Made by a program: the position numbers and the translations under genes
IMG/VR virus record: IMGVR_UViG_3300043313_000292
Coordinates: 1-45,267 of that record
Source: a virus
Direction: 5' to 3' (one strand)
Length of the DNA: 45,267 nt
The notes under the pieces: generated by a model
Told to the model about the DNA's origin: nothing
The model's input: only the letters and a program-made list of their open reading frames with translations
Database searches by the model: none
In this document: in pieces, positions 1,122 to 39,664 of the stretch
Numbering within the stretch: the stretch's first letter is position 1
How the letters are laid out: the number at the start of each line of letters is the position of its first letter

Positions 1122-1931
1122 TCAGCCGTTGCTCGGGTCGTCGTCGAGGTCGGTCTTCCCGAGCGGAATCACGGTGTAGGCGGTCGCAAGGCTTGCCTTG
1201 TCGATCCGGATCGGCCGGAGCGGGTAGTTCTTCTCGACGTCGGGTTCGGCGGCCTTCCGAACCGTGTTGAACCCATAGTTACTGAAGGGCCCGGTTAGGA
1301 CGTTGTCGACGCCCAAGTAGAGGCTGCCGTCCTCGTCCATGATGCTGAAACGCACGTGATCATCCTCGTCTGTAGGTGGCGGAGTAGGTGTCGGGTAGGT
1401 GCCGCCCTTCGCCCAGGTGATCACCTGGTCGATCGGGAACTGCGGCCCGCAGTCCCAGTGATCGGACTGGCGGTAGACCTCGGAGGCTTGGTTGTGAGTG
1501 ATGATGCCGCGCTGCCCGGCGGCCAGCTGTGCGTTCGTCAGGTGGACCAGCGGGATCCCTTGCCGTGCGCAGATGTCGGCCACGAGGGCGGCGGTGAGAC
1601 GGAGCATGGTCGGGACGGGCTCGCCGGCCCATTCTGCGGACCAGCCGGCGTAGGCGGCCTGCTCGATCTGTATTCCGTCGCTGTTGGCGCCCGGTGCGGC
1701 CCAGGCGGTGTCATCTTCGTCGATCTGAGAGCAGATGGTCGTCGGGTCGACGGCGTAGTGCGTCGACGCTCGAACGGTGGGCCGGGCGAGGAACTCGCAC
1801 GTCGAGCGGGCACGGCCCGGCTGGCATGGGCACTCGGCGGTGTGAAGGACGACGAGGCGGGGTCGAGCATTTCGGCCGGCGTAGTAGTACGGGTTCGGTA
1901 CGTGATCCGAGGCGAGCGGTGAGACGGCCAT
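1122..1931 (-). CDS. Endolysin: N-acetylmuramoyl-L-alanine amidase
   Basis: A 269-residue Amidase_2/PGRP-fold protein. Visible active-site elements are LVVLHTAE (zinc ligand H30), STHYAVD (Y59), ITHN (H146) and HWDCGP (C161 as third ligand position). A Pro/Thr linker (TPTPPPTDEDD, about residue 180) leads to a C-terminal domain of about 80 residues, probably cell-wall binding. It would cleave the amide bond between MurNAc and the peptide stem. The ATG at 1931 overlaps the preceding stop (TGATG). A much longer upstream extension of the same frame is a shadow of the CoiA-like gene. Confidence 0.88.
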   Translation of the reverse strand: MAVSPLASDHVPNPYYYAGRNARPRLVVLHTAECPCQPGRARSTCEFLARPTVRASTHYAVDPTTICSQIDEDDTAWAAPGANSDGIQIEQAAYAGWSAEWAGEPVPTMLRLTAALVADICARQGIPLVHLTNAQLAAGQRGIITHNQASEVYRQSDHWDCGPQFPIDQVITWAKGGTYPTPTPPPTDEDDHVRFSIMDEDGSLYLGVDNVLTGPFSNYGFNTVRKAAEPDVEKNYPLRPIRIDKASLATAYTVIPLGKTDLDDDPSNG

Positions 1932-2743
1932 CAGCCGGAGCCTACCGACATTGTGAGACACGCGGTGTGTGCCCCTTGACGTGCGCGCGTCATCAGGTGC
2001 CCGCAGATCCGACACTCGACGGCGTGACGGTCGGGGCCCCCTCCGGTGAGCTTGTCGAGCATGGCTCGGGTATCCCGCTCGACGGGGCGGCGCTGGCGGC
2101 GAGGCTTCGGCGGCGCGGGCGGGTTCGAGTCGATCCACGAGCCAGCGGCGGCGGTGACACGGCCCGAGAGGATCCCACGGATCAGGTCGGCCAGGGTGAG
2201 GGTCACGGGCTCGCCGTTCAGGGCCCGGGAGCCGGACACGGTGGCCAGCTCGTGATCGACCTCGATCCACGGGTGGCGGCCATCGGGGCGGCGATGGCAG
2301 AGCCACAGGGTCGGGGCGACGGGTGTCCGCTGAGCGTCGCGGGTGGCGGTGATGTCGTACGACTGCGGCGACAGCTGGACCTCGACGATCAGGACAGGCC
2401 TGCCAGCTCGGAACGCGACCACGTCCGCTCGGAACTCGGGGAACAGCGCCTCGACCTTCGGCGTGTAGCCGGCGGAGTGAATGGCGGCCTCGGCGGCGGA
2501 CTTCAGGGCCCGGTGCTCGTCGGATTCGCCTCCGGTGTTCGAGCAGGGCCGGTCGGGTGTCACGAGGTGGAAGAAATGGGCTCGCCGGTCCTGCGGGCGT
2601 CGAGGTGCCATCGGGTGTCGACAGTCGGGGCAGGTGAGCGTCCCGCCGGCCCGGTAGTAGGCGACTGCGGCGTCCCACGATTCGGAGCCCATGTGGTCGG
2701 CGTCGAGGGGGTGGGCGTCGGTTCGGATGGCTTGGAATCCCAT
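1931..2743 (-). CDS. CoiA-like PD-(D/E)XK nuclease family protein
   Basis: A 270-residue protein with CoiA-family features: a zinc ribbon-like CPDCRHPM with HFFH, a helix EHRALKSAAEAAIHSAGY, then FRADVVAF and VLIVEVQLSP, the D...ExQ core of a restriction-like nuclease. A second CxxC...H cluster (CRICGH) is near the C-terminus. CoiA proteins act on DNA in competence, and phage relatives probably process or repair DNA. I prefer the ATG at 2743 because the longer ORF from 2878 translates the iteron repeats. It is the first gene downstream of the iteron/AT-rich region. A palindromic operator lies in its last codons. Confidence 0.7.
   Translation of the reverse strand: MGFQAIRTDAHPLDADHMGSESWDAAVAYYRAGGTLTCPDCRHPMAPRRPQDRRAHFFHLVTPDRPCSNTGGESDEHRALKSAAEAAIHSAGYTPKVEALFPEFRADVVAFRAGRPVLIVEVQLSPQSYDITATRDAQRTPVAPTLWLCHRRPDGRHPWIEVDHELATVSGSRALNGEPVTLTLADLIRGILSGRVTAAAGSWIDSNPPAPPKPRRQRRPVERDTRAMLDKLTGGGPDRHAVECRICGHLMTRARQGAHTACLTMSVGSG
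1977..1992. promoter_or_regulatory. Palindromic site TGACG-N6-CGTCA, copy 1
   Basis: TGACGTGCGCGCGTCA inside the 3' end of the CoiA-like gene, about 45 bases ahead of the endolysin start. On the minus strand it is read as ATG ACG CGC GCA CGT CAA. There is no -10 element at the right distance, so it may be a stoperator-like site. Confidence 0.75.
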
Positions 2744-2776: not shown

Positions 2777-2831
2777 TGTCGGAAGGTTGGGCGTGTCGGA
2801 AGTGTCGGAAGCCTTCCGACACCTTCCGACA
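2777..2831. repeat. Iteron cluster A: TGTCGGAAG x3 direct, x2 inverted
   Basis: TGTCGGAAG occurs at 2777-2785, 2794-2802 and 2803-2811, followed by the inverted form CTTCCGACA at 2813-2821 and 2823-2831. The arrangement of three direct then two inverted copies is repeated in the cluster at 2941-2992. This is typical of initiator (iteron) or cooperative regulator binding sites. Confidence 0.85.
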
Positions 2832-2940
2832 AAAATGTGAGGATATCGGTGTTTCTCGGCGTATTCCCGTACGTACATGAGTCAGAGAGATATACACTTT
2901 CAATACATACTGTGTTCTCCCACACGCCAGACCCCCCATT
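2832..2940. other. AT-rich core between iteron clusters (candidate origin or early promoter)
   Basis: About 110 bases clearly richer in A/T than anything around them, with AAAAATG, GATATACAC and CAATACATAC. It sits symmetrically between two mirror-like iteron clusters, the layout of a DNA-unwinding element in an iteron origin. Promoter-like strings occur here too (TTGAAA on the minus strand, 17 bases before TCATGT), so control of the CoiA-like and lysis genes is an alternative or added role. No ORF here is convincing. Confidence 0.55.
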
Positions 2941-2992
2941 TGTCGGAAGTTTGTCGGAAGGTTTGTCGGAAGGTTTCCGACACCTTCCGACA
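2941..2992. repeat. Iteron cluster B: TGTCGGAAG x3 direct, x2 inverted
   Basis: TGTCGGAAG at 2941-2949, 2952-2960 and 2964-2972, then TTTCCGACA at 2974-2982 and CTTCCGACA at 2984-2992. It has the same 3+2 layout as cluster A, about 110 bases away. A degraded sixth copy (CGTCGGGAG) follows. The cluster ends about 45 bases from the stop of the large ATPase gene. Confidence 0.85.
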
Positions 2993-3035: not shown

Positions 3036-4568
3036 TCATGGCTCGATCCGTCCCGGCCGGAAGTCTTCGGTGATCCACTCCATGAGGGTGGCGTAGCTGA
3101 TCGCATCCTCGGCGGACACGTATCGTAGGTGAGCGCTCGACGGTGCCCGGGATACGCAACGCTTCCGGCACCCGCCCTCGCACGCTTGGCGGTGGACGTG
3201 CCTGGCGATCGCCCTGGCGGCCCCTTCGAGCGCTCGGGCCTCACTGTCGCCCTCGACAGCGCCACGGGCGGCCACGGCCCGCTGAGCGGCCCTCTCGGCG
3301 TCCTCGGCGGTCTGTGCCGCCCGACCGGCTGCGGCGGCGGCGTAGACGGTCCCTCGGACGGCGTCTGAGACGTTCAGGATGATGCCGGCGAGATGCCAGT
3401 CTTCGCCACCCACGTCCACCCGTCCGTCTATCAACGTTAGGAGTCCGGCGACCTTTAGGCGGAGTAGGTCGCGGTGGGAGTCGATCGGCGCCTCGGTCGA
3501 GTAGCCGCGCGAACGCGCGAGATGTCGGGCGGCTACTTCGGCCTCGATCTGCCGGTCGACGGTCATGTTCTGGATCGCGAACTCAGGTTCGCCCAGCTCG
3601 GGCCAGTCCGGCGGGTCGTCGGGTAGGTCGGGGTCGAGGGCCGACAGCCATAGGAAGCGCTGAGGTGTCCCGCCAGCGAGGTCGGCCAGCATGGCGGCGG
3701 CGTACTCGGGCTGGAATCCGGCGACCATCGCGAACCGGTAGCTGCGGGCGTCGAGGTGGCGGTTCCTGTCCTCGTTCGCGTTGGCCTGCCCGAGCTGCGA
3801 TCCGGACCAGGCTGACCGGATCGTCGGCCACAGTGTCGAGCCCTGGCGGGATCCAAGCTCACGGAACGCGGCGCCCTCGTCGAGAGTGAACAGCCCGTGG
3901 CGGTTCACTTGTCGACGCTCGACCCGTTTCTTTCCTTCGGCGTCGACAATGTCGACCTTCCCGAGGTACGCGTCGATGAGCCCCTCGCCCGACCCGAGCC
4001 CTCTCGACACGTAGCCGGGCCGTGCCCGATGCGGAAGCATGTCGGCGGCGACGTCGAGGCTGGCGGACTTCCCTGCGCCTGATCGGCCGATCAGGGCGAC
4101 GCACAGATCGAGCGTGCCGCGTGCCCCGATGATCGACGGGAGCGTCACGGCCGGATCGACGAGCCATGCGGTGCGGGCGAGTACGGCTCCGAGGACACTG
4201 TCAGCGGGCGTGCGCCGCGCCCATGCGGCCTGGCGGATCGCGGACAGCTCGGGCCGGGCGTCCCAGAACGCCCGTGGAAGGTTCGTCGACGGCTGCTCGG
4301 GCCGTTCGAGCGCTTCCCGGTAGGCGTCCACCGTCGCGGCGAGGTGGCGGCGCTCAGCGTGCTGGAGGGCGGAGATGGCGGCGCGTGTCGCGAGCGCTGC
4401 GGGGTCGGATGCGGTGCAGAGGTCGGAGACATGGTGGACGATCTCGCCTCGCGGGAGGTCTCCTCGGAGCCAGTCGACGACCTCGTGATCGAGTAGCGGC
4501 TGATCGGCTACATCGAGCAGTCGGAGGTTCCACCAGTCCACGCGGGACCGGTCGCGTTCGATTGTCAC
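3036..4568 (-). CDS. DUF3987-like P-loop ATPase, putative replication protein
   Basis: A 510-residue protein from a GTG at 4568. Walker A is GRSGAGKS at residues 161-168 and Walker B is LFTLDE at 226-231, followed by a long helical block with FAMVAGFQPEYAAAML (sensor-like) and GGTPQRFLWL (arginine-finger-like). This matches DUF3987/RepA-helicase-type phage proteins that lack a visible primase domain. The N-terminal 100 residues are helical; the C-terminus carries a Cys/His-rich HVHRQACEGGCRKRC segment. It ends next to the iteron region, so it may act there as the initiator or helicase. The assignment to replication is inferred from fold and position. Confidence 0.6.
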   Translation of the reverse strand: MTIERDRSRVDWWNLRLLDVADQPLLDHEVVDWLRGDLPRGEIVHHVSDLCTASDPAALATRAAISALQHAERRHLAATVDAYREALERPEQPSTNLPRAFWDARPELSAIRQAAWARRTPADSVLGAVLARTAWLVDPAVTLPSIIGARGTLDLCVALIGRSGAGKSASLDVAADMLPHRARPGYVSRGLGSGEGLIDAYLGKVDIVDAEGKKRVERRQVNRHGLFTLDEGAAFRELGSRQGSTLWPTIRSAWSGSQLGQANANEDRNRHLDARSYRFAMVAGFQPEYAAAMLADLAGGTPQRFLWLSALDPDLPDDPPDWPELGEPEFAIQNMTVDRQIEAEVAARHLARSRGYSTEAPIDSHRDLLRLKVAGLLTLIDGRVDVGGEDWHLAGIILNVSDAVRGTVYAAAAAGRAAQTAEDAERAAQRAVAARGAVEGDSEARALEGAARAIARHVHRQACEGGCRKRCVSRAPSSAHLRYVSAEDAISYATLMEWITEDFRPGRIEP

Positions 4569-4582
4569 GTCGTTTCGCGGCT

Positions 4583-4774
4583 CTACGCGGTGGCGGCGAG
4601 GTGGGCGGCGACGAGGCGTCGGACGAGCGCGCTGGCGGTCGTGCCTTCCCGGGCGGCGGCGGCCTGGAGCTGGTCGCGCATCTCGGGCGTCATCTTCATG
4701 TCGAAATGCGTCGAGCGTTGCCCGATCTTGCCGGACAAGGGTCGACGCGACCATGTGGGGTCGGTGGCGGTCAT
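4583..4774 (-). CDS. Ribbon-helix-helix DNA-binding protein
   Basis: A 63-residue protein. Residues about 22-63 (STHFDMKMTPEMRDQLQAAA, then REGTTASALVRRLVAAHLA) match the Arc/CopG ribbon-helix-helix pattern: a short beta strand and two helices with a GTTASALVRR turn. It probably acts as a dimeric repressor. Its ATG overlaps the upstream stop (4771-4774) and it lies 14 bases before the ATPase gene, so it may tune the replication genes or bind the nearby repeats. Confidence 0.75.
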   Translation of the reverse strand: MTATDPTWSRRPLSGKIGQRSTHFDMKMTPEMRDQLQAAAAREGTTASALVRRLVAAHLAATA

Positions 4775-4983
4775 TCTGCGTTCCGTTCGTGCTGGCGGAT
4801 GGCTTCGGCGCGTCCCCGAGCCCATGCGGGCGATGACGTGAGCGCGTCACCCGGCGGGGTCGGCTCGGTCAGGGCGGGGACGACATACTGCTTCACGACC
4901 TGGTAGGCGTCGTCGATCGAGCGTTGCCCCTTGCGGCGTGCACTCTTCGCCTCGGCGGCCTTTCCCTTGGCTCTGCTGCTCAT
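4771..4983 (-). CDS. Small charged protein of unknown function
   Basis: A 70-residue, strongly basic N-terminus (MSSRAKGKAAEAKSARRKGQ) followed by a helical segment and a Pro-rich stretch. The start lies just after the hairpin at 5003-5041 and it is coupled to the ribbon-helix-helix gene by ATGA. Nucleic-acid binding is possible from charge, but no family is recognised. Confidence 0.6.
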   Translation of the reverse strand: MSSRAKGKAAEAKSARRKGQRSIDDAYQVVKQYVVPALTEPTPPGDALTSSPAWARGRAEAIRQHERNAE

Positions 4984-9812: not shown

Positions 9813-10171
9813 TCGGTGTCCTTGGTGGCGGCGGGCAGGTTGCGGGTAATGGCGGCGTCGATGAGGTGGTCGAGGCTGTCTCGGAGGGCGAACGCTGCGA
9901 TCAGGTCGACCTCGATCATCAGCGACAGCGCTTGGTCGGTCAGGTCGGCGGCGATCCCGACGATGATCCGTTCGGTGCCGTTGGCGGTCGGCTTCAGCAG
10001 CCCGAGCGCCATGCCGGTCAGGTGGCGTTCCCCTACGATGAACTCGACGTCGGACGCGAGGTTGGCGAGGTTGCCCACGTCGTCGAGGTCGAACGGTGCG
10101 ATCTGCGAGAGATCCTCGTCGCTGAACGTCGCCCAGTCGGTCCGTTTCGTGGGCAGCATCCGGTCAGGCAT
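9809..10171 (-). CDS. Hypothetical protein next to XRE regulator
   Basis: A 120-residue protein with a helical start (DLSQIAPFDLDDVGNLANLA), an acidic middle and a C-terminal helix (ALSLMIEVDLIAAFALRDSL). It overlaps the XRE gene by eight bases and the coiled-coil gene by four. No motif is recognised. Confidence 0.6.
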   Translation of the reverse strand: MPDRMLPTKRTDWATFSDEDLSQIAPFDLDDVGNLANLASDVEFIVGERHLTGMALGLLKPTANGTERIIVGIAADLTDQALSLMIEVDLIAAFALRDSLDHLIDAAITRNLPAATKDTE

Positions 10172-10532
10172 CGGTGGTGGCGTTCCTCTCGGGTTCCTGC
10201 TCGACGAGGCGGCGAAGGGCGGCCAGGTCGGCGGTCGTGGCGGTCAGGATGAACGGGACGGGTAGGTGGTCGTCGTCGGGTAGCAGGTCGGCGGTCGCGC
10301 ACTTCAGCGCTTCGGCGGCGACGCGTAAGCGATGGATTGGGACTCGGGTCAGCCCCAGCTCCCAGTCAGCGAACCGGTTGCGGTGAATCGAGCACGCTTC
10401 GGCCATCTGCTCGATCGTCAGCCCGAGCGCCATCCGTCGCGCCCGGATCAGTTTCCCGACCTGCGCGTAGACGTCCTCGATTGGCGTGCGGGCGGGTGGC
10501 GTCAGTCGGCGCCGTACGGATCGGGTCGTCAT
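10164..10532 (-). CDS. XRE-family helix-turn-helix regulator
   Basis: A 122-residue protein. A lambda-repressor-like HTH spans about residues 23-80: VGKLIRARRMALGLTIEQMA, then ACSIHRNRFADWELGLTRVP and LRVAAEALKCATADLL. There is no LexA-type peptidase domain, so if it is a repressor it is not RecA-cleaved. It is embedded in an operon and not next to an operator-promoter, which makes it one of several candidates (with the proteins at 4583 and 26399) for the factor reading the palindromic sites. Confidence 0.85.
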   Translation of the reverse strand: MTTRSVRRRLTPPARTPIEDVYAQVGKLIRARRMALGLTIEQMAEACSIHRNRFADWELGLTRVPIHRLRVAAEALKCATADLLPDDDHLPVPFILTATTADLAALRRLVEQEPERNATTDA

Positions 10533-11104
10533 CAGTAGTCGCCTCGCCTTCCGAGCCATGCGGCGGCTTCGTCGATGCGGGTCCGGTAGTCGTCGGTTTC
10601 GCCGCTGCGGGTGTCGGCGGCGACGGTCATGGCGTCGACGAGGTAGCGTCGCTGCGGCGGGGCGAGCGACCCGAGGACGGACACGAGCCGACCCCACGCT
10701 GTCCGCATGTTGCCGGGCCCGAGGTCGTGGCCTTCGGCGAGCAGGACGGCGGCGGCGACAGCGAGCAGCCGGCGGCGCTCGTCGAGCGCTTCGGCTCGGA
10801 CGCGCATGTCCTCGTCGACGCGGGCGACGTGGGCGGCCCACCAGTCGGGCCAGTCGGCCAGCGGGCAGATGGCGGACGCGATGGCAGCCCCGGCGATCGG
10901 CTTCGCCTTGCCGGTGGTGATCCCGTACGGGTACGTGTCCTCCGGCCCGCTCAGCTCGACGGGGTACATCACGGCCCCGGTCGCCCCGGCGGCGCCGCCG
11001 CCACGGACCCGCTCGAACGTGATCGGGTCGCCCGTGGCGGCGAACGTCGGCCCGTAGCCGGCGAGCTGGTAGACGGTGGCGGGTGTCAGCGCGGAGCGCT
11101 TCAT
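10532..11104 (-). CDS. Hypothetical protein
   Basis: A 190-residue protein. The N-terminal half has an extended, Gly-rich start (LTPATVYQLAGYGPTFAATG) and VMYPVELSGPEDTYPYGITT; the C-terminal half is helical (EALDERRRLLAVAAAVLLAE). It overlaps the XRE gene by one base. Function unknown. Confidence 0.6.
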   Translation of the reverse strand: MKRSALTPATVYQLAGYGPTFAATGDPITFERVRGGGAAGATGAVMYPVELSGPEDTYPYGITTGKAKPIAGAAIASAICPLADWPDWWAAHVARVDEDMRVRAEALDERRRLLAVAAAVLLAEGHDLGPGNMRTAWGRLVSVLGSLAPPQRRYLVDAMTVAADTRSGETDDYRTRIDEAAAWLGRRGDY

Positions 11105-11515: not shown

Positions 11516-12904
11516 TCAGCTGATCGGCTGTTGACGCGCGCCCGTCACTCTCGGCTTGGCCACGAGGTCGATCGCCTCCGGACGCTTCGGGCAGCGCGTG
11601 ACATGGAGCGCCACGAACGCCCGGATCCTGGCCAGCGCCACCGGACGAGGATCCGCCCAGTCGATCACGTCCAGCTCGCCCCGCTCGTTCGCCCACGCCC
11701 GAGCTTCGACGAGCGTCGACATCGGCATGAACGCTCGACAGCGAACGACGCCCGACTCCTCCGCCACGACCGCGTCGAACACGCCCGGCCACTGCTCGGG
11801 GATCGGCTGATACCCGTCCTCGCCGTTCCCGCCACGCGTCCCCTCGCCCAAACCCATATCGGCCACACGCCACCCGTCGACGCGGAACACGACCCGCTGG
11901 CGAAGCTCAGCCCGCAGCACCGTGTCGACGATCGCCCCGATCGGGTTCTGAGCGACAGCGTGGATCGCGAGCCCCAGTTCCCGGCCCTGCTGCGCGAGAT
12001 GTATCACCCGTTCGAGGTCGTCGTCTTCGAGGTCGAGGGCGGGGAACTCTTCGATCACGACGAGGCGAAGGGGAAGCTCGGGTGTCGGATGGTACGGGCG
12101 GCCGTCGAGGATCTCGGCCCGTTTCCGCAGACTCGCCTCGATCCGGCCGATGTCCTCGACGATGCCCCGCTTGGACTTCAGGACGAGCCCGTGGCGGATC
12201 CGAGGGCCGAAGTCGCCGTAACCGGTGCCACCCTTCACGGACCCGTCGTACACGGTGATCTCGACGTTCGGGAACGTCGCGGCGCCCAACAGCATGTCGG
12301 TGACGCCGACCGTCTTACCCGACCCGTTCTGTCCGACCCATAGCGCTGTCTTCGTCAGGTCGATCAGGTAGGGCCGGAGAAACTCGGTCCGGCCGATCGC
12401 GACCTGAAGGCCTCGGCCGCCAGGTGGACGCCGTCCCGGGGCGACCGGGTAGGCGGCGGCGGCGGCCAGCGGATGCGTCCTCGCCACGGTGATCGAGCCA
12501 CGCCCCGGCGAGCCCGGCAGCGGGCGGATCCGGACGAGCCCGACCGTCACCCGACGCGCCAGCGCCCCCGCTACCCGTTCCTCGACCTTCCGCAGCTCGT
12601 CGGCAGTCCAGCCCGGGTAGGACAGTCCGAACTCGATCCCGTCGCCCACCGGACGCCCCCCAGCGTGCACGGTCGGCAGAGGTCGAGCTTCGGTCGAGCG
12701 GAGCCCGGCGGCGGCCCACGCTGCGGGCATCTCGGCCTTGACTTGGCGTGGGTAGCTGTCGGGCAGCGACGTGAGCCCGGCCTGTTCCGGCCGGCGGACG
12801 GCCACCTTTGGCCGACGCCACCGGTCGATGAGCGGCGCCAGGGCGAGATAGGCGACGAGCAGGGCGACGCACGCGAGCGGCCAGACGAACACGGCGGACG
12901 TCAC
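11516..12904 (-). CDS. FtsK/SpoIIIE-like DNA translocase ATPase
   Basis: A 462-residue protein from a GTG at 12904. It has one N-terminal transmembrane helix (residues about 5-27), a linker domain, then a motor domain with Walker A GQNGSGKT (191-198), Walker B LVVIEE (281-286), and HAVAQNP and RQRVVFRVDG motifs typical of the FtsK-HerA class. In actinobacterial plasmids such ATPases (TraB/TraSA type) move double-stranded DNA between cells. Coupled small membrane proteins upstream strengthen a transfer or membrane-tethered DNA-pumping role. Phage packaging is less likely because a terminase is present. It lacks a recognisable gamma (KOPS-reading) domain. Confidence 0.8.
   Translation of the reverse strand: MTSAVFVWPLACVALLVAYLALAPLIDRWRRPKVAVRRPEQAGLTSLPDSYPRQVKAEMPAAWAAAGLRSTEARPLPTVHAGGRPVGDGIEFGLSYPGWTADELRKVEERVAGALARRVTVGLVRIRPLPGSPGRGSITVARTHPLAAAAAYPVAPGRRPPGGRGLQVAIGRTEFLRPYLIDLTKTALWVGQNGSGKTVGVTDMLLGAATFPNVEITVYDGSVKGGTGYGDFGPRIRHGLVLKSKRGIVEDIGRIEASLRKRAEILDGRPYHPTPELPLRLVVIEEFPALDLEDDDLERVIHLAQQGRELGLAIHAVAQNPIGAIVDTVLRAELRQRVVFRVDGWRVADMGLGEGTRGGNGEDGYQPIPEQWPGVFDAVVAEESGVVRCRAFMPMSTLVEARAWANERGELDVIDWADPRPVALARIRAFVALHVTRCPKRPEAIDLVAKPRVTGARQQPIS
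11532..11547. promoter_or_regulatory. Palindromic site, copy 5
   Basis: TGACGCGCGCCCGTCA in the last codons of the FtsK-like gene (minus-strand reading V-T-G-A-R-Q), about 70-90 bases before the next gene's ATG at 11460. Confidence 0.65.
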
Positions 12905-13368
12905 GGCTTCCCCCAGCGGCGGAGCCGTTGCATCCGGCGCACCTTCACGATCGGCAGGGCGGCGAGAAAGACGAGCGTCCACGCCCCGGCGAGCCCGACG
13001 AACGCCAGGGTCGCGAGCGACATGGAGCCGACGAGCAGCCCCCACGCGGCGACCCATACGCGGGTGCGGGTCTGCCACCGGATCACCTTGACAGGCATCC
13101 GCCCGAGCTTGCGTGCGTTGTCGCCAAAGTCGACGGCCTCTCGGACGCCGTAACTCGTCTTCGTCTTCCGCCAGCCCCACGCGGCGAGCCCGGCCGACCA
13201 GTAGACGAGCGACCAGTAGACGAGCGACGCGGCCGGAGCGATCGCCTCCATGTTCCGCGTGGGCGTGACGACCAGCCACCAGACGACATGGGCGAGCGCC
13301 CAGCCGATCCAATAGACGGCGGTCGGGAGCCACATCGGTGAGTCGGTGAGCGCTCCGGCGAGCATCAT
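12901..13368 (-). CDS. Multi-pass membrane protein coupled to the FtsK-like gene
   Basis: A 155-residue protein with hydrophobic segments near residues 13-33 (LPTAVYWIGWALAHVVWWLV), 43-62 (AASLVYWSLVYWSAGLAAWG) and 104-140 (VWVAAWGLLVGSMSLATLAF and TLVFLAALPIV), and a basic C-terminus (RRMQRLRRWGKP). Its stop overlaps the FtsK-like GTG. A membrane partner or anchor for the translocase is the natural reading. No named family. Confidence 0.65.
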   Translation of the reverse strand: MMLAGALTDSPMWLPTAVYWIGWALAHVVWWLVVTPTRNMEAIAPAASLVYWSLVYWSAGLAAWGWRKTKTSYGVREAVDFGDNARKLGRMPVKVIRWQTRTRVWVAAWGLLVGSMSLATLAFVGLAGAWTLVFLAALPIVKVRRMQRLRRWGKP

Positions 13369-13948: not shown

Positions 13949-14213
13949 CGCCCCACCGTTCGAGCTGACGGGTCGACGCACGGTAGAGCATGGCGGCGGC
14001 CCAGATCCCGGCGGCGACGAGCCCTCCGAGGGCGGTCGCCCAGACGGCCAGGGCGGCGCCCATCGGGAGCGTCCAGACGGCCACGGTCGCCCCGGCGAGA
14101 ATCAGGCAGGCGCCGATGAGCGCTCCGAGGATCAGCCCGTGGCGCGGCGTCGACGTGTAGCTGCCACCGGCCCGCTCGAACCCTCGCCCATGCAGTTGAC
14201 GTGCGCGCGTCAC
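13938..14213 (-). CDS. Two-helix membrane protein
   Basis: A 91-residue protein from a GTG at 14213 that overlaps the upstream stop as GTGA. Hydrophobic segments lie at about residues 26-46 (HGLILGALIGACLILAGATV) and 50-75 (AALAVWATALGGLVAAGIWA). A palindromic site covers the start codon, so its first residues are V-T-R-A-R-Q. Probably another part of the membrane cluster beside the FtsK-like ATPase. Confidence 0.6.
   Translation of the reverse strand: MTRARQLHGRGFERAGGSYTSTPRHGLILGALIGACLILAGATVAVWTLPMGAALAVWATALGGLVAAGIWAAAMLYRASTRQLERWGDEG
14197..14212. promoter_or_regulatory. Palindromic site, copy 6, over a start/stop junction
   Basis: TGACGTGCGCGCGTCA spans the GTGA junction between the GIY-YIG/HTH gene and the two-helix membrane protein. 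Binding here could block elongation across the junction or mask the start. Confidence 0.7.
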
Positions 14214-15346
14214 TTCACCCACCTTCCTACAGACGATCTCGACACGGTCACGCCCTCGTCCGCCATCTCGGCCACGATCTCGGCCAGCGACAGCCCACGG
14301 TCGTGGAGCTGGCGGGCCCGAGCGACACGCTTATCCGCCGCCCCGGAGGCTTTCCGCTGTCCCCCCTTCGGCCGACCCGAACCGGTCGAGCGCCGCGGCG
14401 GCGAAGCCGCGTCGTCAGCCTCTACCCGTCGACCGTCTCCCGTGGCTCTCTCAGCTCCTACGGTCGGGCCACCCGAGCCGACCGTAGGTGTCTCAGCGTG
14501 GGACGGTGGGACAGCGTGGGACAGCGTCTCAGGTGTCTCAGCGGCGGGGCCCCTACGGGGCCCCGTGAGACAGTGAGACAGTGAGACAGCGGGACAGTCG
14601 TGGGACAGCGGGACAAGGTGGGACGGCTGGACGGTCAGCTCGTGCGCCCCAACCTTCGGCGCATCGGGAGCCACGGGAGACGGATCGACAGGATCGGAGC
14701 TGACGACAGCGGGTTCGTCGAGCGGAGCTGGACCGGTGTCGGGTCGATTCGGGGACAGCGTCCCATCCCCCTCGGCATCATCGACGTCGACCACCGTACG
14801 GCCGTCCAGGTCGACGACGGGTGTCGGCCATGACTCGACGGACACGGCGTCAGGGTCGGTGACGGGATGCTCAAACAGGGCCCGCTCGGGGAACGGGAGC
14901 GCCTCGACGCGCAGCACGAGCAGGTGAAGCCAGCGGACGGGATGAGGGCCCCTCGACAGGTTCGTCCCGGTGTCGTTCTCGATCGGCGGGCACACGCCGA
15001 TGCGGGACGCGTAGGTCAGGGTCCGGATCCGCCGCATCTCGGCCCGACGCGCGCCGCCCTCGGTCAGGGTCCGGAGGACGGGTCCGCTGATCGCCCAGTC
15101 GACGTCACGTTTCCACGGTGCCCAGTCGGCGTCCCGGTCGTCCTGGTGGCGTCCCATGCGGGACGGCCAGTCTTTCGACGATCCGACGTATGCAGCCCAC
15201 CCGACCGCTTTCGGGTTCGCATCGCCCGCGCCGCGCTTCAGGTAATAGACGACGTTCGGCGTCCAACAGAGGACGAGGAAGCGGATCCCGAGCGGGATCG
15301 CCACGGGCGACAGAATGAGAATGATCACAGCGACGTCGTGGATCAC
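14210..15346 (-). CDS. Membrane-anchored GIY-YIG-like nuclease with C-terminal HTH
   Basis: A 378-residue mosaic. Residues about 5-27 form a membrane helix (VAVIILILSPVAIPLGIRFL). Residues about 33-130 look like a GIY-YIG nuclease: VYYLKRG, GWAAYVGSSKDWPSRMGRHQ, ARRAEMRRIRTLTYA and PPIEND. A long disordered Pro/Asp/Ser/His-rich linker (about 160-320) has repeated 'LSH' units. The last 40 residues form a resolvase-type helix-turn-helix (ARQLHDRGLSLAEIVAEMAD, then SRSSVGRW). It could nick DNA at the membrane, next to the FtsK-like pump. The nuclease call is by pattern, without structural proof. Confidence 0.55.
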   Translation of the reverse strand: MIHDVAVIILILSPVAIPLGIRFLVLCWTPNVVYYLKRGAGDANPKAVGWAAYVGSSKDWPSRMGRHQDDRDADWAPWKRDVDWAISGPVLRTLTEGGARRAEMRRIRTLTYASRIGVCPPIENDTGTNLSRGPHPVRWLHLLVLRVEALPFPERALFEHPVTDPDAVSVESWPTPVVDLDGRTVVDVDDAEGDGTLSPNRPDTGPAPLDEPAVVSSDPVDPSPVAPDAPKVGAHELTVQPSHLVPLSHDCPAVSLSHCLTGPRRGPAAETPETLSHAVPPSHAETPTVGSGGPTVGAERATGDGRRVEADDAASPPRRSTGSGRPKGGQRKASGAADKRVARARQLHDRGLSLAEIVAEMADEGVTVSRSSVGRWVK

Positions 15347-23993: not shown

Positions 23994-25016
23994 GCAGTAG
24001 GCGAGCGTGTCCATGTTGCGGCTCACGGCGGTGATGATCGCCCCGGCCGGCTTGCGGGCGATGCCGGTCATCTCGACAAAGCTCGTCCCGCCCTCGGCGG
24101 TCAGCTTCCGTGGGGCGGCCTTCCACTGGACCTGCGGGATCGTGAGCGACAGCGTCCGGAGGTTCGTCGTCGCCAAGCTGTTCGTGTAGGCGGCCCGCCA
24201 GCTGGTAGCGGTCCCGTCGAGGAAGTCCGCCACGCTGGCCCCGGGCGTCGTCGTCGAGCCGTAGTTCACTTTCTTATACTGATCGGCTGTTAGCTCTAGG
24301 AACTTGACCTTCAGCTCGACAGTCATCTTGTTCTTTAGAATGGCGGCGCGGGTCCATGTCGACGTGAATATGTTGTCGTCGATGCCCCAATCGATCGTCA
24401 TTTCCCACGAGGCGATATTCGTCACGGTGGCGTTGTCGAGCGTGTACGTGCAGTCGGACGGACGGAACGCTGCGCCCGGTGTCGCCCCGTGCATCCCGGC
24501 TTCATACGTGACGGCGGTCGGGCTCGCGACCTTCGCCGGGGTCGACCCGGCCCACGTCCACGCGGCCGTGACTTCGCCGTTCCCCTCGGGCGACGAGATG
24601 ACGAGCTTCGAGAGGACGCATCCGCCGACCCGCTCGACGAGGTCCGACGCCCCGGCGGCGTTCCATTCCGTCGTGAGATAGATGGGCGGCTGGTCGGGGA
24701 TCGAGGTGTGATCGAACAGTGAGCCGGCGGCGGCCACCTGGTCGTCGCCGAGGAACCACGCGAGTAGGGCGGCCGTCGTCGATGGCTTCAGCGGGTGGGT
24801 GAAGGTCCCGTTCGGCTTGTGGCGAGTCTTGACGCTGCGGGCCTGATACGGGCCCGTGCCGCCCTCCCAGACCTCGTCCGACTCCATGCCGTGTTCGAGG
24901 ACAGCGTCGCCCGTAAACGGGATGAACAGCTCGGGCGGCTGAGCGGTGCGCGGCACGTCTTCGAGGGCGAGCCCAAAGTAATGAGCGAGGTCGTCGAGCG
25001 CGTACGGTCCGGCCAT
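23991..25016 (-). CDS. Major tail (tube) protein
   Basis: A 341-residue, beta-rich protein (DLAHYFGLALEDVPRTAQPP, then FIPFTGDAVLEHGMESDEVW, KPNGTFTHPLKPSTTAALLA). The N-terminal layout and position directly before the tail-assembly chaperone mark the siphovirus tube subunit. The C-terminal half contains IDWGIDDNIFTSTWTRAAIL and LTIPQVQWKAAPRKL, typical of tube proteins with an extra domain. Confidence 0.85.
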   Translation of the reverse strand: MAGPYALDDLAHYFGLALEDVPRTAQPPELFIPFTGDAVLEHGMESDEVWEGGTGPYQARSVKTRHKPNGTFTHPLKPSTTAALLAWFLGDDQVAAAGSLFDHTSIPDQPPIYLTTEWNAAGASDLVERVGGCVLSKLVISSPEGNGEVTAAWTWAGSTPAKVASPTAVTYEAGMHGATPGAAFRPSDCTYTLDNATVTNIASWEMTIDWGIDDNIFTSTWTRAAILKNKMTVELKVKFLELTADQYKKVNYGSTTTPGASVADFLDGTATSWRAAYTNSLATTNLRTLSLTIPQVQWKAAPRKLTAEGGTSFVEMTGIARKPAGAIITAVSRNMDTLAYC

Positions 25017-25592: not shown

Positions 25593-25774
25593 CGGCCGGC
25601 CCGCTTCGCCAGCTCGTCGCCCACGCTGGCGAACGTGGCCTGCGCCACGGTGAATCCCCAGTCGTCGCCCGTGCGGACCATGAACGAGGCGGAAGCGGTC
25701 GCCAGCTCGACGAGCTGCTCGACGGTGTGGAACCGGAGGTCGAATCGGACGGTGTCGGTGGCTGCGGTGGTCAT
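25589..25774 (-). CDS. Small protein under operator control (61 aa)
   Basis: MTTAATDTVRFDLRFHTVEQ, then a helical and hydrophobic middle (LVELATASASFMVRTGDDWG). The ATG is exactly 7 nt after a TAGTCT -10, predicting a leaderless mRNA. The longer upstream reading (ending LTCARHGSSLYH) is only the translation of the promoter/operator and is not used. No family recognised. Confidence 0.65.
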   Translation of the reverse strand: MTTAATDTVRFDLRFHTVEQLVELATASASFMVRTGDDWGFTVAQATFASVGDELAKRAGR

Positions 25775-25777
25775 GTG

Positions 25778-25810
25778 GTACAGACTAGACCCGTGACGCG
25801 CACACGTCAA
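25778..25810 (-). promoter_or_regulatory. Leaderless promoter with palindromic operator (copy 9)
   Basis: -35 TTGACG (25805-25810), spacer 17, -10 TAGTCT (25782-25787), ATG 7 bases later. The palindrome TGACGCGCACACGTCA (25794-25809) covers five bases of the -35 and most of the spacer, so a bound protein would exclude RNA polymerase. Nearly identical to 26624-26656. Confidence 0.8.
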
Positions 25811-25821
25811 TGTCGGATGTG

Positions 25822-26202
25822 TTACAACGACCGGCCGGCTCGGAGATCCTCCAGCCAACCCGGATGCTGCCCGGTGATGTCGTAGTTATCGCACAGCACC
25901 TTGTACGCGACCGACAGGGCGGCGTCGACCGTCCCGGGCGCCCACGAGACCCCGCACCCGAGCAGCGCCCGGCCCTGCGCCTCGTCGGGCGTCAGCGGCG
26001 GCGCGTCAGCCGGAGCGGACGCCAGATAGGCGGCGTAAGGATCCCACGCGACCGGCTCAGCGGACGTGGGAGCCGACGTGGCGGCGTCATCGGCCACGGT
26101 CGAGCAGCCCAGGGCGGCGACGGTCAGCGACCCGAGGACGAGCCCCCATGCGACGACGAGGGCGTAGTAGCGGATCGGGCGGGGGAATAGGTGGCGTGTC
26201 AT
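25822..26202 (-). CDS. Putative lipoprotein
   Basis: A 126-residue protein with a basic start, a membrane-like helix (YALVVAWGLVLGSLTVAALG) and a lipobox-like AALGC, then a Thr/Ser/Ala linker and a small domain with two Cys (ALLGCGVSWAPGTVDAALSV, AYKVLCDN). The arrangement resembles small DUF732-like actinobacterial exoproteins. It would be an outer-face lipoprotein of the host membrane. It lies 5 bases after the 64-aa gene. The start at 26202 is preferred over the longer frame. Confidence 0.65.
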   Translation of the reverse strand: MTRHLFPRPIRYYALVVAWGLVLGSLTVAALGCSTVADDAATSAPTSAEPVAWDPYAAYLASAPADAPPLTPDEAQGRALLGCGVSWAPGTVDAALSVAYKVLCDNYDITGQHPGWLEDLRAGRSL

Positions 26203-26402: not shown

Positions 26403-26620
26403 CGGCCGACCAGCCGGTAGCGGCGGTCGCTCGGAACGCCGTCCTCGAACACGACGCCAGCCTCGACCAGGGCGGCCAGCGCGGCGTCGACGACGAGGGC
26501 GGAGGTCTGGCGGAGGATGGCGCCCTCGACGTAGCTGTTCAGCAGTTGAGTCCGGTGGTGGGCTCCATCGGCGAGGGCGGTGAGGATGGCTCCGGTTGCG
26601 GTGGCGTTGGTCGAGGTCAT
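26399..26620 (-). CDS. Small winged-helix-like protein, candidate regulator
   Basis: A 73-residue protein: helix (GAILTALADGAHHRTQLLNS), a helix with AILRQTSALVVDAALAALVE, and a hairpin (GVVFEDGVPSDRRYRLVGR). This succession matches a minimal winged-helix DNA-binding domain. It is the first gene of a leaderless transcript whose promoter contains the palindromic operator, the classic arrangement of an autoregulated repressor. It is one of three candidates for the protein that binds the dispersed sites; the call rests on pattern only. Confidence 0.5.
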   Translation of the reverse strand: MTSTNATATGAILTALADGAHHRTQLLNSYVEGAILRQTSALVVDAALAALVEAGVVFEDGVPSDRRYRLVGR

Positions 26621-26623
26621 GTG

Positions 26624-26656
26624 GTACAGACTAGACCCGTGACGCGCACACGTCAA
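26624..26656 (-). promoter_or_regulatory. Leaderless promoter with palindromic operator (copy 10)
   Basis: -35 TTGACG (26651-26656), spacer 17, -10 TAGTCT (26628-26633), ATG at 26620. Operator TGACGCGCACACGTCA (26640-26655) is identical to copy 9. The flanks (ATGTCGGATGTGTTAC, 26655-26670) are also the same as upstream of 25774, so a block of more than 50 bp has been duplicated. Confidence 0.82.
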
Positions 26657-26778
26657 TGTCGGATGTGTTACGGACACGGATTACGGATGACGGGCGACCC
26701 TAGACAGCGCCGCTACCCTGTCCTCGGAGCTGAGCGGTGGTGCGCCAGCTCGCACCGGAGACGGTGGCGGTCATGCGG

Positions 26779-26820: not shown

Positions 26821-27618
26821 TCAGCGGTGGAAGTCCTCACCACACTTGTGGCAGGTGATAGCGCCGGCCTCGAAATCCTCGGCGAACATGGTCAGGGTCC
26901 GGCAACCGCAGCCGAAGGTCAGCCGGCGGCGGACGATCCGCGTGGCGACCGGCTCGCCCTCGACCTTCGGGGCCGGGCTCATCCGGTCGTCGGACGGATC
27001 CTCCGGATTGCGGCGCACGAGCGTCGTGGCGATCATGGCCCGCACCTCGGCGTCGAGGGCGGCCAGCTCGTCGGCCCAGATGACCAGCCCGAACTCCGAC
27101 AGCGTCACAGCGCTGTAGCCGATCAGCTTCGAGGGCGCACCGTGGGCGTACTCCAGCTCGAACGTCGCGGCCTGCTCGACGAACTGGCGATTGTGGTACC
27201 GACCGCCACGGGTCGTGTCCTTCACCTTGCGGACCTGAGCGAGCAGGTGGGTGGCCTCGTGAAGGATGGTCTCCAGCGCCCGGACTGCGCCCATGCCGAG
27301 CACCTCGCCGGAGATGAACAGCTCGTGGACGTTCGTGGCGTCCACGCCAGCGACCGACCAGATCGGGGCGACGGTGACGTATCCGAGGTTGATCCCGCCG
27401 GGGACGGAGCCCATGCCGGTGACGAGGTGGACGTTCGGGAGGGGCGTGCCGCCCTTGGCGGCGAACAGCTGGACCTTGCGCCAGATGCGCTCCAGCACTG
27501 CGGAGAGCTGCGAAGCGGAGGAAGGGGCGGCGTTGCGGGCGGCCCGGCGGGCGGCGATCGAGCGGCTGTTGCGGCCGGTGTTGGTGTCGGTGGCGGCGGT
27601 GTTGGTGTCGGTGTTCAT
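26821..27618 (-). CDS. SprT-like zinc metallopeptidase
   Basis: A 265-residue protein. The active-site motif is ILHEATHLLAQV (H120, E121, H124), followed by RYHNRQF with the third ligand H142, as in SprT/Spartan-like proteins. A C-terminal zinc ribbon is visible (TFGCGCRTLTMF, ITCHKCGEDF). SprT-like proteases act on DNA-bound proteins in eukaryotes; phage and actinobacterial relatives are uncharacterised. It is transcribed from its own operator-promoter (27622-27654) and ended by a hairpin. The ATG at 27618 is used; upstream codons are promoter sequence. Confidence 0.82.
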   Translation of the reverse strand: MNTDTNTAATDTNTGRNSRSIAARRAARNAAPSSASQLSAVLERIWRKVQLFAAKGGTPLPNVHLVTGMGSVPGGINLGYVTVAPIWSVAGVDATNVHELFISGEVLGMGAVRALETILHEATHLLAQVRKVKDTTRGGRYHNRQFVEQAATFELEYAHGAPSKLIGYSAVTLSEFGLVIWADELAALDAEVRAMIATTLVRRNPEDPSDDRMSPAPKVEGEPVATRIVRRRLTFGCGCRTLTMFAEDFEAGAITCHKCGEDFHR

Positions 27619-27621
27619 GTG

Positions 27622-27654
27622 GTACAGACTAGTGGAGTGACGTACCCACGTCAA
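27622..27654 (-). promoter_or_regulatory. Leaderless promoter with palindromic operator (copy 11)
   Basis: -35 TTGACG (27649-27654), spacer 17, -10 TAGTCT (27626-27631), ATG 27618. Operator TGACGTACCCACGTCA (27638-27653). It is back to back with the plus-strand promoter at 27702. Confidence 0.8.
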
Positions 27655-27681
27655 TGTCGAACGTGTTACGGAACCTCGAGG

Positions 27682-27690: not shown

Positions 27691-27701
27691 TCGGACCGTC
27701 A

Positions 27702-27737
27702 TTGACGTGTGCGCGTCACGGGTCTAGTCTGTACCAC
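27702..27737 (+). promoter_or_regulatory. Plus-strand leaderless promoter with palindromic operator (copy 12)
   Basis: -35 TTGACG (27702-27707), spacer 17, -10 TAGTCT (27725-27730), then GTACCAC and ATG at 27738. Operator TGACGTGTGCGCGTCA (27703-27718). The sequence is the mirror of the minus-strand promoter at 26624-26656, which shows the cassette moved as an inverted copy. Confidence 0.8.
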
Positions 27738-27866
27738 ATGAGCGCAGCCACCACCCACACCACTTCAGCGGCCACGGCCGAAATCATCCGGCGGGCACGG
27801 GTCCTCCGTGCCGGGGTCGGCGTGGCCCTCGTGGAAGCGGTGAGCCCCGGCGGGGCCCCGAGCTGA
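27738..27866 (+). CDS. Plus-strand mini-gene (42 aa)
   Basis: MSAATTHTTSAATAEIIRRA, then RVLRAGVGVALVEAVSPGGA, PS. The only gene I accept on this strand. It starts exactly 7 nt after a -10 and stops inside a bidirectional hairpin. Thr/Ala-rich start with a short amphipathic basic helix; no family. Possibilities are a small regulator, an antirepressor-like peptide, or a decayed gene end behind a live promoter. Confidence 0.55.
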   Translation: MSAATTHTTSAATAEIIRRARVLRAGVGVALVEAVSPGGAPS

Positions 27867-37258: not shown

Positions 37259-39664
37259 TCAGGCGTTGCCGCGGGTGAACCCGCGCCAGTCGAGGATTGC
37301 GGCACCGTAGATGTGGCGGATCTTGTACGTGATCACGTCACGATCGAACATCGATCCGACGTTCGGATCGGACTGCGTGAACAGCTCGGGCGTCTGGCGG
37401 CCCTGGTAGAAACCGACCTCCATGGTCGGGATCTCGTTCGGGTCGGCCACGAGGATCCACTTCGTCGTGCTCGACCAATACGGGACGACCATCAGCCCGG
37501 TGCCCTGGTGACGGTTCGGCGTGTTCGAGGCGGCGCCCACCGGAGAGCCGGCGGGGATCGCTACGGACGACGTGACGATCTGCCATGCCAGCGGTTCGAG
37601 GTTCGGGACGATGATCAACGTCTTCGGGCGGAGCCCGAGCAGCTCGGTGCTGTTCCCGTAGGCGGCGAGGCGGGCCATGGCGACACGGCTCGTGTCGAGT
37701 GCCGTGGTCGAGAGGGCGGTCGAGGTCTCATTGAAATGGGCAGCATCGAACAGGTTGACGCTGTCGTAGATGACCGGGTCCTGATCGAGGAAGTCGAGGA
37801 CGAACCGGTAGAGCGTCACAGCGGCGGCCCGGCCCAGTCGGCGCGGGATCAGCTGGACGGACCGCATGTCGTCGTTCGCGATCATCTCCATGGTGATCTC
37901 GTCGGTGCCGCCACGCTTCGAGATCGCGTACGTGACCTCTTCGTCATCGGGTGACGTGAGCGGCTGATACGGAGCGCCTTCGAGGACGGTCGGGAGCAGC
38001 CCGTAACCGCCGATGCGGTCGAGTCGCTGCGTCCGGAAGTCGTTGATCGAGGGCGTCGAGCTGACGATGCGGCGCCAGTCGTCGAGCCCGGCGAACTGGT
38101 AGTCGGCGATCATCCGGCGAGTGATCGAGTCGCCGAGCACCTGCGCCCACGAGCCCGACGTGAGCGCCTCGCCCGAACGGCCGGCCAGGATCGCCTCGGT
38201 CGAGCGCTTCCGCAGCTCCTCCGGCTTCTCGCCGGGGCGGGGAACGGCCGACACGCCGTGCTCCTGTGAGTCGAACCATGCCTGAGACTCGCGGATGAAC
38301 TGGCGGTTCACGTCGGCGCCCTGCCCGAGGAACTGCGGGCGGCGGCCAGTCCAGTCCTTCCATGCCTCGACGATCGACCGGTAGCCGGACGTGTCGCCAG
38401 CGAAAAACGCGTCGATCGCCGCGACCTTCTGGTCGATGTCCTCCGTGACCACGATGGCCCCTGTCTTCGTCTCGGGGACGACAGGGACGAGCCCGGCCGT
38501 TTCATACGCTCGGGCGATCTCCGTGGCGCCCTTCACGTGGGCGAGCAGCGACGACTCGGAGAACCGGGCGGGGATCGTCGGGAGGACGGCCTTCCGGACC
38601 GGCTCGGAGAGATCGGCGAGCGCCTCGCGGATCATGGCCCGACCGATGAGCCCTTCGGCGGCGACCAGGACGTCCTCGGGCTTGGCAGGATGCAGCGGGT
38701 CAGGAACGCCCGTCTCGGGATCCTTCTCGGCCGGCTTCTCGCCAGGCTTGGGCGGCTCGGGCGGAGCGGCCGGCTTCTCGCCAGGCTTGGGCGGCTCGGG
38801 CGGAGTCAGGGCGGCGGCGAGGCGGAGCGCTCCGGCGTCGTCAAGCTCCGAGTCCTTCAGGACCGCCTTCGCCTCGTCGGTGGCGAGGATCTCTCGACGT
38901 GCGTCGTCGTCCTTCGCCTTCGAGAGCTTGTCGAGCAGGGCCCGCAGAGTCAGCATTGGTTCGCCTCCGGCGAGTGTTCGTTGAGCCCTACCACCAGCGG
39001 CAGGATCGGCCACGACATCGACGGACAGTACTCGATCGATCGATGTCGCCTCTTGCACTCCCGCGGTCGTCCGTCGCGTCTGCATCAGGACGTCGTGGGA
39101 AAGTCCGGCCAGGGCGGGCCGGTTCGCGGCCTCGCCTTCGAGGCTGGCGTCGAGCACAGCGGCGGCGTGAGCTGCGGCCGGCGTAGCGAGTAGGTGAAGG
39201 GTGGCGTCGAGTCCGCCGGTTACGGCCTCGACGGTGTGGACAGTGCCGATCAGTCCGGCGACGGTCGAGGTCTGCATTTCTGCATCCGACCGGTGATGGT
39301 CGAATACCTTGGCGCCCTCGTATCTCGTCTGCGCACTATGCAATACGGCTTCGGGGTAGAACCGTTTATTGAGCGACTCGCCACTATTGATTACCCGCAC
39401 ACGAAAGCGGCGGGTCCCGTCCGGTGCGTTGTCGAGCTTCTCCAGCACACGCCCCGACGACAGGGTGTCGAGATGGGCCCGGTCGCGGCTGAGCGTCTCG
39501 CCGGCTTCGGTCACCCGATGCGGCGCGCACTCCTCGTGGACGTAGCCCGACCCGTCCGACATCCGGCCGATCCGGTCGCCCGGCTCGATCCGACGCGGGC
39601 ACACGACACACGGACCTTCGAGGCGGGCAGTCTCGATCCGGCCGACCAGCGGCTCTACGGTCAC
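37259..39664 (-). CDS. Fusion: zinc finger, prohead protease, major capsid protein
   Basis: An 801-residue polyprotein. Residues about 17-50 form a zinc site (CVVC, C19/C22, and HEEC, H43/C46). Residues about 85-235 look like a capsid maturation protease (FRVRVINSGESLNKRFYPEA, AKVFDHHRSDAEM, LSHDV). Then a scaffold-like helical stretch, a repeated linker (PPEPPKPGEKPA twice, about 285-325), and from about 340 the major capsid domain (VLPTIPARFSESSLLA, SQEHGVSAVPRPGEKPE, VTYAISKRGGTDEITMEMIA, IYGAAILDWRGFTRGN). Protease-capsid fusions are known in a minority of phages; the extra zinc finger is unusual. The protein presumably self-cleaves during head maturation. Confidence 0.85.
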   Translation of the reverse strand: MTVEPLVGRIETARLEGPCVVCPRRIEPGDRIGRMSDGSGYVHEECAPHRVTEAGETLSRDRAHLDTLSSGRVLEKLDNAPDGTRRFRVRVINSGESLNKRFYPEAVLHSAQTRYEGAKVFDHHRSDAEMQTSTVAGLIGTVHTVEAVTGGLDATLHLLATPAAAHAAAVLDASLEGEAANRPALAGLSHDVLMQTRRTTAGVQEATSIDRVLSVDVVADPAAGGRAQRTLAGGEPMLTLRALLDKLSKAKDDDARREILATDEAKAVLKDSELDDAGALRLAAALTPPEPPKPGEKPAAPPEPPKPGEKPAEKDPETGVPDPLHPAKPEDVLVAAEGLIGRAMIREALADLSEPVRKAVLPTIPARFSESSLLAHVKGATEIARAYETAGLVPVVPETKTGAIVVTEDIDQKVAAIDAFFAGDTSGYRSIVEAWKDWTGRRPQFLGQGADVNRQFIRESQAWFDSQEHGVSAVPRPGEKPEELRKRSTEAILAGRSGEALTSGSWAQVLGDSITRRMIADYQFAGLDDWRRIVSSTPSINDFRTQRLDRIGGYGLLPTVLEGAPYQPLTSPDDEEVTYAISKRGGTDEITMEMIANDDMRSVQLIPRRLGRAAAVTLYRFVLDFLDQDPVIYDSVNLFDAAHFNETSTALSTTALDTSRVAMARLAAYGNSTELLGLRPKTLIIVPNLEPLAWQIVTSSVAIPAGSPVGAASNTPNRHQGTGLMVVPYWSSTTKWILVADPNEIPTMEVGFYQGRQTPELFTQSDPNVGSMFDRDVITYKIRHIYGAAILDWRGFTRGNA
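38729..38804 (-). repeat. Tandem 39-bp repeat in the capsid fusion linker
   Basis: Two 37-base identical stretches (38729-38765 and 38768-38804) with a period of 39 encode PPEPPKPGEKPA twice, in the flexible linker between protease and capsid parts. Confidence 0.85.

Follow-up and report, generated by a model that had tools for sequence, protein, structure and literature searches.

A probable bipartite iteron origin of replication beside a DUF3987-type helicase gene in a tailed actinobacteriophage

The window analysed here is the whole of the viral record IMGVR_UViG_3300043313_000292, a 45,267-bp stretch of DNA with about 68% G+C in which the minus strand carries nearly all of the genes. The record encodes large and small terminase subunits as well as portal, head, head-protease and tail proteins. 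Because these structural genes (terminase, portal, head-protease and tail) are present, the record is that of a tailed phage and not of a satellite; the incomplete set of virion genes and the dependence on a helper phage that characterize a PICI satellite do not describe it. No close DNA relatives of the window were found among phage records.

Ten copies of the repeat TGTCGGAA[G/A] lie in two clusters of five, at 2777-2831 and 2941-2992 (Table 1). Nine are exact copies of TGTCGGAAG, which does not occur exactly anywhere else in the record, and the tenth differs at one position (TGTCGGAAA). The most frequent 8-mer per 220 bp reaches 10 copies at this site; dinucleotide shuffling of the whole record, repeated 200 times, never gave more than 5. 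A preliminary description of the locus reported two clusters, each with three direct and two inverted copies in the same order and about 110 bp apart, and the positions of the exact matches and the 109-bp length of the core agree with this. The same description called the clusters mirror-like, which is wrong for the window since both read +++-- and one is a direct copy of the other; inverted arms arise only because each cluster holds both orientations. The core between the clusters has an A+T content of 54% as compared with a record mean of 32%. It was said to be the most A/T-rich stretch of the window, and at 110 and 150 bp the most AT-rich stretches of the record do overlap the core, while at 80 bp the core is only tied with 24262-24341. 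No tRNA or known RNA family was found at the repeat site, and no DnaA box was found in the window. The GC-skew check that had been recommended gave no switch at 2.8 kb, a result that is uninformative because the nearly one-stranded gene layout masks skew.

Table 1. Features of the repeat locus and of the genes on either side of it.
Feature	Position	Strand	Remarks
CoiA-like nuclease ORF	1931-2743	-	Weak PF25164 match, E 0.003; far side of putative origin
Iteron 1, TGTCGGAAG	2777-2785	+	Exact match
Iteron 2, TGTCGGAAG	2794-2802	+	Exact match
Iteron 3, TGTCGGAAG	2803-2811	+	Exact match; 19-bp palindrome with iteron 4
Iteron 4, inverted	2813-2821	-	Exact match
Iteron 5, inverted	2823-2831	-	Exact match
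AT-rich core, presumed melting region	2832-2940	.	109 bp; AT-rich cores of relatives at equivalent place
Iteron 6	2941-2949	+	Exact match
Iteron 7	2952-2960	+	Exact match
Iteron 8	2964-2972	+	Exact match
Iteron 9, inverted	2974-2982	-	One mismatch, TGTCGGAAA
Iteron 10, inverted	2984-2992	-	Exact match
DUF3987-type AAA+ (MCM-like) helicase, proposed initiator	3036-4568	-	510 aa
C-terminal winged-helix-like domain of helicase, proposed iteron reader	3039-3233	-	Co-variation; helix pattern in model
Small ribbon-helix-helix (RHH) protein	4583-4774	-	1.5 kb from repeats

The first iteron lies 43 bp beyond the stop of the helicase gene (3036), so that the gene placed upstream of the repeats in the preliminary description is upstream in the sense of transcription only. 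The helicase probably starts at the GTG at 4568, and its open frame (3036-4850) runs into the small RHH gene. The protein matches phrog_28894 (E 5e-42) and phrog_11515 (E 2e-40), phage families annotated as DNA polymerase/primase, in their helicase half, and is 30-40% identical in the ATPase region to the primase/polymerases of Gordonia and Mycobacterium phages. A single-protein search gave no close relatives and a PDB sequence search gave no useful relative. The label of DUF3987-like ATPase is sound for the family, as hits to PF13148 (DUF3987; best E 1e-12) were obtained for 43 of the 51 relatives aligned, while the window protein by itself stays below threshold; no DUF927 or D5/Primase_C-term Pfam matches were found in the 51 relatives. 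The lysine of the P-loop (Walker A) is invariant and the glycines are near-invariant. An AlphaFold2 model of the helicase (pLDDT 87.8) predicts an MCM-like AAA+ fold, and the best Foldseek matches of the model are MCM helicases (E 2.4e-6), with the top 50 all MCM/CMG but at TM-scores of only about 0.3. The last 70 residues of the model have a helix pattern of the winged-helix type. A separate primase gene or primase domain was sought in the window and was not found.

The other two genes at the locus are not shared with relatives. Neither the RHH protein nor the CoiA-like protein has homologues in 167 related loci, and the RHH protein is probably not part of the system because relatives do not keep it next to the helicase; the role that had been suggested for it thus finds no support. 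The site was also said to be noncoding, which is correct only if the CoiA-like gene begins at the ATG at 2743 and not if it begins at the ATG at 2878.

The record contains several other repeats. The 17-bp near-palindrome TTGACGTGYGCGCGTCA occurs with at most three mismatches at 19 places (1976, 4833, 6972, 8555, 11531, 14196, 17566, 19479, 20137, 23977, 25794, 26640, 27638, 27702, 35347, 36479, 40328, 41910 and 44001), giving 27 matches on both strands where 0.85 are expected. It looks like a record-wide set of operators or stoperators, and a Cro/C1-type HTH protein encoded at 10164-10841 is a candidate for reading it. Four near-identical promoter-like segments (25770-25830, 26620-26675 and 27618-27672 on the minus strand and 27696-27761 on the plus strand) consist of the TTGACG of the palindrome, a gap of about 17-18 bp, TAGTCT, seven bases and ATG; they resemble leaderless promoters governed by the record-wide operator. 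A second and weaker repeat array lies at 14494-14640 within the ORF at 14210-15346 and is built of TGGGACAG / TGAGACAG units and their complements together with the palindrome GGGGCCCCTACGGGGCCCC. By eye, the N-terminus of the product of this ORF is GIY-YIG-like and an HTH lies at its C-terminal end, and an FtsK/TraB-like ORF is located nearby (11516-13333); the array may be recognized by a translocase. Inside the head/protease gene (37259-39664), 39 bp are perfectly duplicated in tandem at 38728-38805. A search of viral contigs for the palindrome TGTCGGAAGNNTTCCGACA gave only two matches, which are due to chance and resemble coding sequence.

Repeat arrays at the equivalent place are a common feature of related loci. 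The comparison drew on 148 non-redundant helicase loci from actinobacterial phages, prophages and viral contigs. A first sample of 160 loci was reduced at 70% identity, after which 90 had enough flank, and a held-out set was fetched later and is less than 70% identical to the first. A dense array is present at the equivalent place in 45-60% of the 148 loci as opposed to 0.4-3% of control windows, and the repeat sequences of relatives are usually unrelated to TGTCGGAAG. Among the 90 loci of the reduced first sample, the array with the highest 8-mer density (at least five copies) falls between -50 and +350 relative to the helicase stop in 46 of 53 instances (2.1 expected), as do all 16 of the arrays with at least seven copies. 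When mismatches are allowed, an array score of at least 5 is reached by 43/93 downstream regions and 2/556 controls, and by 24/55 held-out downstream regions and 2/330 controls. At a threshold of 4.2 the counts rise to 57/93 (controls 2.2%) and, in the held-out set, to 33/55 (controls 3.3%).

Each of these phages has its own repeat. Just past the stop of the helicase gene, BetterKatz carries an array of CCAGCAAACC in two clusters that flank an AT-rich core, and arrays just past the stop of the homologous helicase gene consist of CACCGTGGACAC in TinyDot, GGTGTCAG in phiGD17-1, CGTGGCCA in Dulem virus 32 and CCTGGAAA in Reyja and Jojo24. The commonest layout among relatives is --+, an AT-rich core of about 90-125 bp, and -++, a mirror order from which the window, with +++-- twice, deviates. 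Adjacent direct copies in relatives are mostly 8-10 bp apart and their cores are usually more A+T-rich than their own loci. The core distances bunch at 107-110 bp; a clean 10.5-bp period that would indicate helical phasing of the two clusters was not seen.

About 40% of relatives have no above-threshold array directly downstream of the helicase gene. Some of these have arrays that are differently built or located within the gene, and in others, such as the Corndog-type Suarez, no array was found. Certain mycobacterial prophages have a lengthened helicase gene and carry their densest repeats within its 3' part. In the elongated genes (L101, L126, L147, L154, L160 and similar loci of mycobacterial and Rhodococcus type), repeats resembling iterons stand within the reading frame, 330-600 bp ahead of the stop, and an additional C-terminal segment comes after them. 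Consensus host-type DnaA boxes (TTATCCACA) are over-represented in relatives, with 6 of 154 regions having them as compared with 9 of 3065 control windows (p 4e-5), suggesting that some of these putative origins may also use the host DnaA. The boxes stand beside iterons in the first 330 bp past the helicase stop (L018, L025, L057, L207, L222 and L286).

The diversity of the repeats makes it possible to ask which part of the helicase varies with them. Iteron motifs from 61 non-redundant loci were compared with two parts of the helicase by partial Mantel tests, which do not fully remove phylogenetic structure and can be over-confident on such data: iteron similarity is associated with identity of the C-terminal domain when ATPase identity is accounted for (r 0.35, p 0.0005), and not with the ATPase domain when the C-terminal domain is accounted for (r 0.01, p 0.41). 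When four segments of the helicase were compared in the discovery set, the signal was confined to the C-terminal one (r 0.34, p 0.001). The C-terminal link was seen again in a held-out sample of 34 loci (r 0.18, p 0.0015). Since the iterons co-vary with this domain and the RHH and CoiA-like proteins are not conserved, the natural conclusion is that the helicase is the protein that would bind the repeats, through its C-terminal domain.

A pattern at a single residue was noticed as well. Within the discovery set, an S or G preceding R/K-D-R/K goes with TGTC in 21/21 cases and A, H, Y or K goes with TGTA in 7/7 (Fisher p 8e-7, for a pattern noticed post hoc). Five of the seven held-out S/G cases are as predicted and the other two lack TGT; there was no scorable held-out case with A, H, Y or K, and one sub-threshold locus, L261, is contrary (YRDR with TGTCCCCC). 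A one-residue code in which S/G or A/H/Y/K would set TGTC or TGTA is only a lead, as it was noticed post hoc and in view of the held-out outcome. A broader proposal is that actinobacteriophage DUF3987 helicases form a large, freely re-programmable family of initiators and origins, with the iteron dictated by a handful of residues close to the recognition helix, and that this type of origin is common to phages and PICI satellites by descent; this is put forward tentatively and is rather doubtful at present.

The best explanation of the region at 2777-2992 is that it is the bipartite iteron origin of a tailed actinobacteriophage and that the adjoining DUF3987-type helicase is its cognate initiator, a reading to which a probability of roughly 0.87 is assigned from sequence comparison and analogy. 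The preliminary description had proposed an iteron origin, and the position of the array in relatives and its co-variation with the C-terminal domain strongly back this part of it. By analogy with SaPI/PICI origins, the C-terminal winged-helix domain of the helicase would bind the TGTCGGAAG iterons, and one helicase hexamer would assemble on each cluster. The helicase would then melt the AT-rich core between the clusters and load itself, as two helicases, so that replication could start.

Dense direct and inverted repeats are also typical of operators, and the ten sites could be a cooperative operator for the RHH protein, encoded 1.5 kb away, or for another phage repressor that controls the CoiA-like gene and the operon downstream. 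Origins bound by an initiator are, moreover, often autoregulated. This reading is nonetheless improbable: the motif is absent elsewhere in the record, including the region upstream of the RHH gene itself, a search for a sigma-70-like promoter at the site was negative, and another palindrome, TTGACGTGYGCGCGTCA, is the candidate for a record-wide operator. In the 167 related loci it is the helicase and the array that travel together, with neither the RHH nor the CoiA-like protein. The cooperative switch that had been offered beside the origin is likewise unsupported, as the motif is absent from other promoters.

Iteron clusters serve as centromeres and copy-number controls as well, and the FtsK/TraB-like protein encoded at 11516-13333 would suit a phage-plasmid for which the repeats were a partition, plasmid-maintenance or incompatibility locus. 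There is no ParA/ParB pair among the proteins scanned, however, and across lineages the repeats follow the C-terminal domain of the helicase, which points to the helicase and not to a partition protein as the reader, making such a locus less probable still than an operator. Finally, the strand folds strongly at the site (z -8) because the repeat is present in both orientations, and the hairpins might be structural elements for transcription end, recombination or packaging that no protein reads. This is the least probable of the readings and hardly credible, since a terminator-like signal was not found at the site and hairpins leave the co-variation of the repeats with the DNA-binding domain unexplained.

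If the region is an origin read by the adjoining helicase, the finding would place origins in many actinobacterial phages whose annotated records, where examined, carry none. Scores of distantly related viruses have the layout, with repeats that differ. With a repeat and a reading domain peculiar to it, each phage would add to a natural series of matched initiator/origin pairs, which could be used for testing how initiator specificity evolves and why the replication of phages and that of satellites do or do not interfere with each other. No paper describing these phage origins was found in the open-access literature.

Known origins share some of these features. In iteron plasmids and lambda-type origins, the sites of the initiator are repeated beside an AT-rich unwinding region near the initiator gene, as is proposed for the window. 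RepA/RepE and lambda O, which are not themselves helicases, have to bring in that of the host, whereas the proposed initiator of the window is a helicase; repeats at those origins usually form a single array and not two flanking clusters. In phages of lactic acid bacteria, some origins are known to lie downstream of helicase genes.

The DUF3987 (PF13148) proteins are themselves putative helicases. Kazlauskas and coworkers predicted a helicase role in mobile elements for DUF3987 ATPases, and origin recognition as a possible role of the C-terminal winged-helix domains of such proteins (PMC5862659). The present results support and extend this prediction: they give a probable function to a widespread domain together with a probable DNA target and, by co-variation, the domain likely to recognize it, where no DNA target was linked to DUF3987 proteins in the open-access papers found. 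The Cch (DUF927, MCM-like) and Cch2 proteins of SCCmec resemble the window in combining an initiator-type helicase with direct repeats downstream, and the C-terminal domain of Cch2 binds, in vitro, repeats that closely follow the Cch2 gene (PMC7581432). Unlike those of the window, the Cch2 sites are three 5-nt iterons without a two-cluster layout; Cch and Cch2 belong to other helicase families and SCCmec elements are not phages.

There is a close likeness to the origins of SaPIs and other PICIs (SaPIbov1, SaPI1, EfCIV583 and EcCICFT073), in which two sets of short iterons surround an AT-rich region directly past the 3' end of the initiator gene and SaPI Rep recognizes the origin through its C-terminal domain (PMC6092414, PMC7581432). 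The window likewise has two short-iteron sets with an AT-rich region between them immediately 3' of a helicase gene. For the window helicase, recognition through the C-terminal domain is suggested by statistical co-variation across loci. The systems differ in that SaPI Rep is of the DUF927 or D5/Primase_C-term kind and the window helicase of the DUF3987 kind, that no primase was found beside the latter, and that the window belongs to a tailed phage whose own genes supply the terminase, portal, head and tail proteins. A 2018 paper stated that the origin with two iteron sets is present in no known bacterial replicon besides phage-inducible islands (PMC6092414). The presence of such a probable origin in complete phages, isolated Gordonia phages included, with another helicase family contradicts this exclusivity and bears on the source of satellite replicons.
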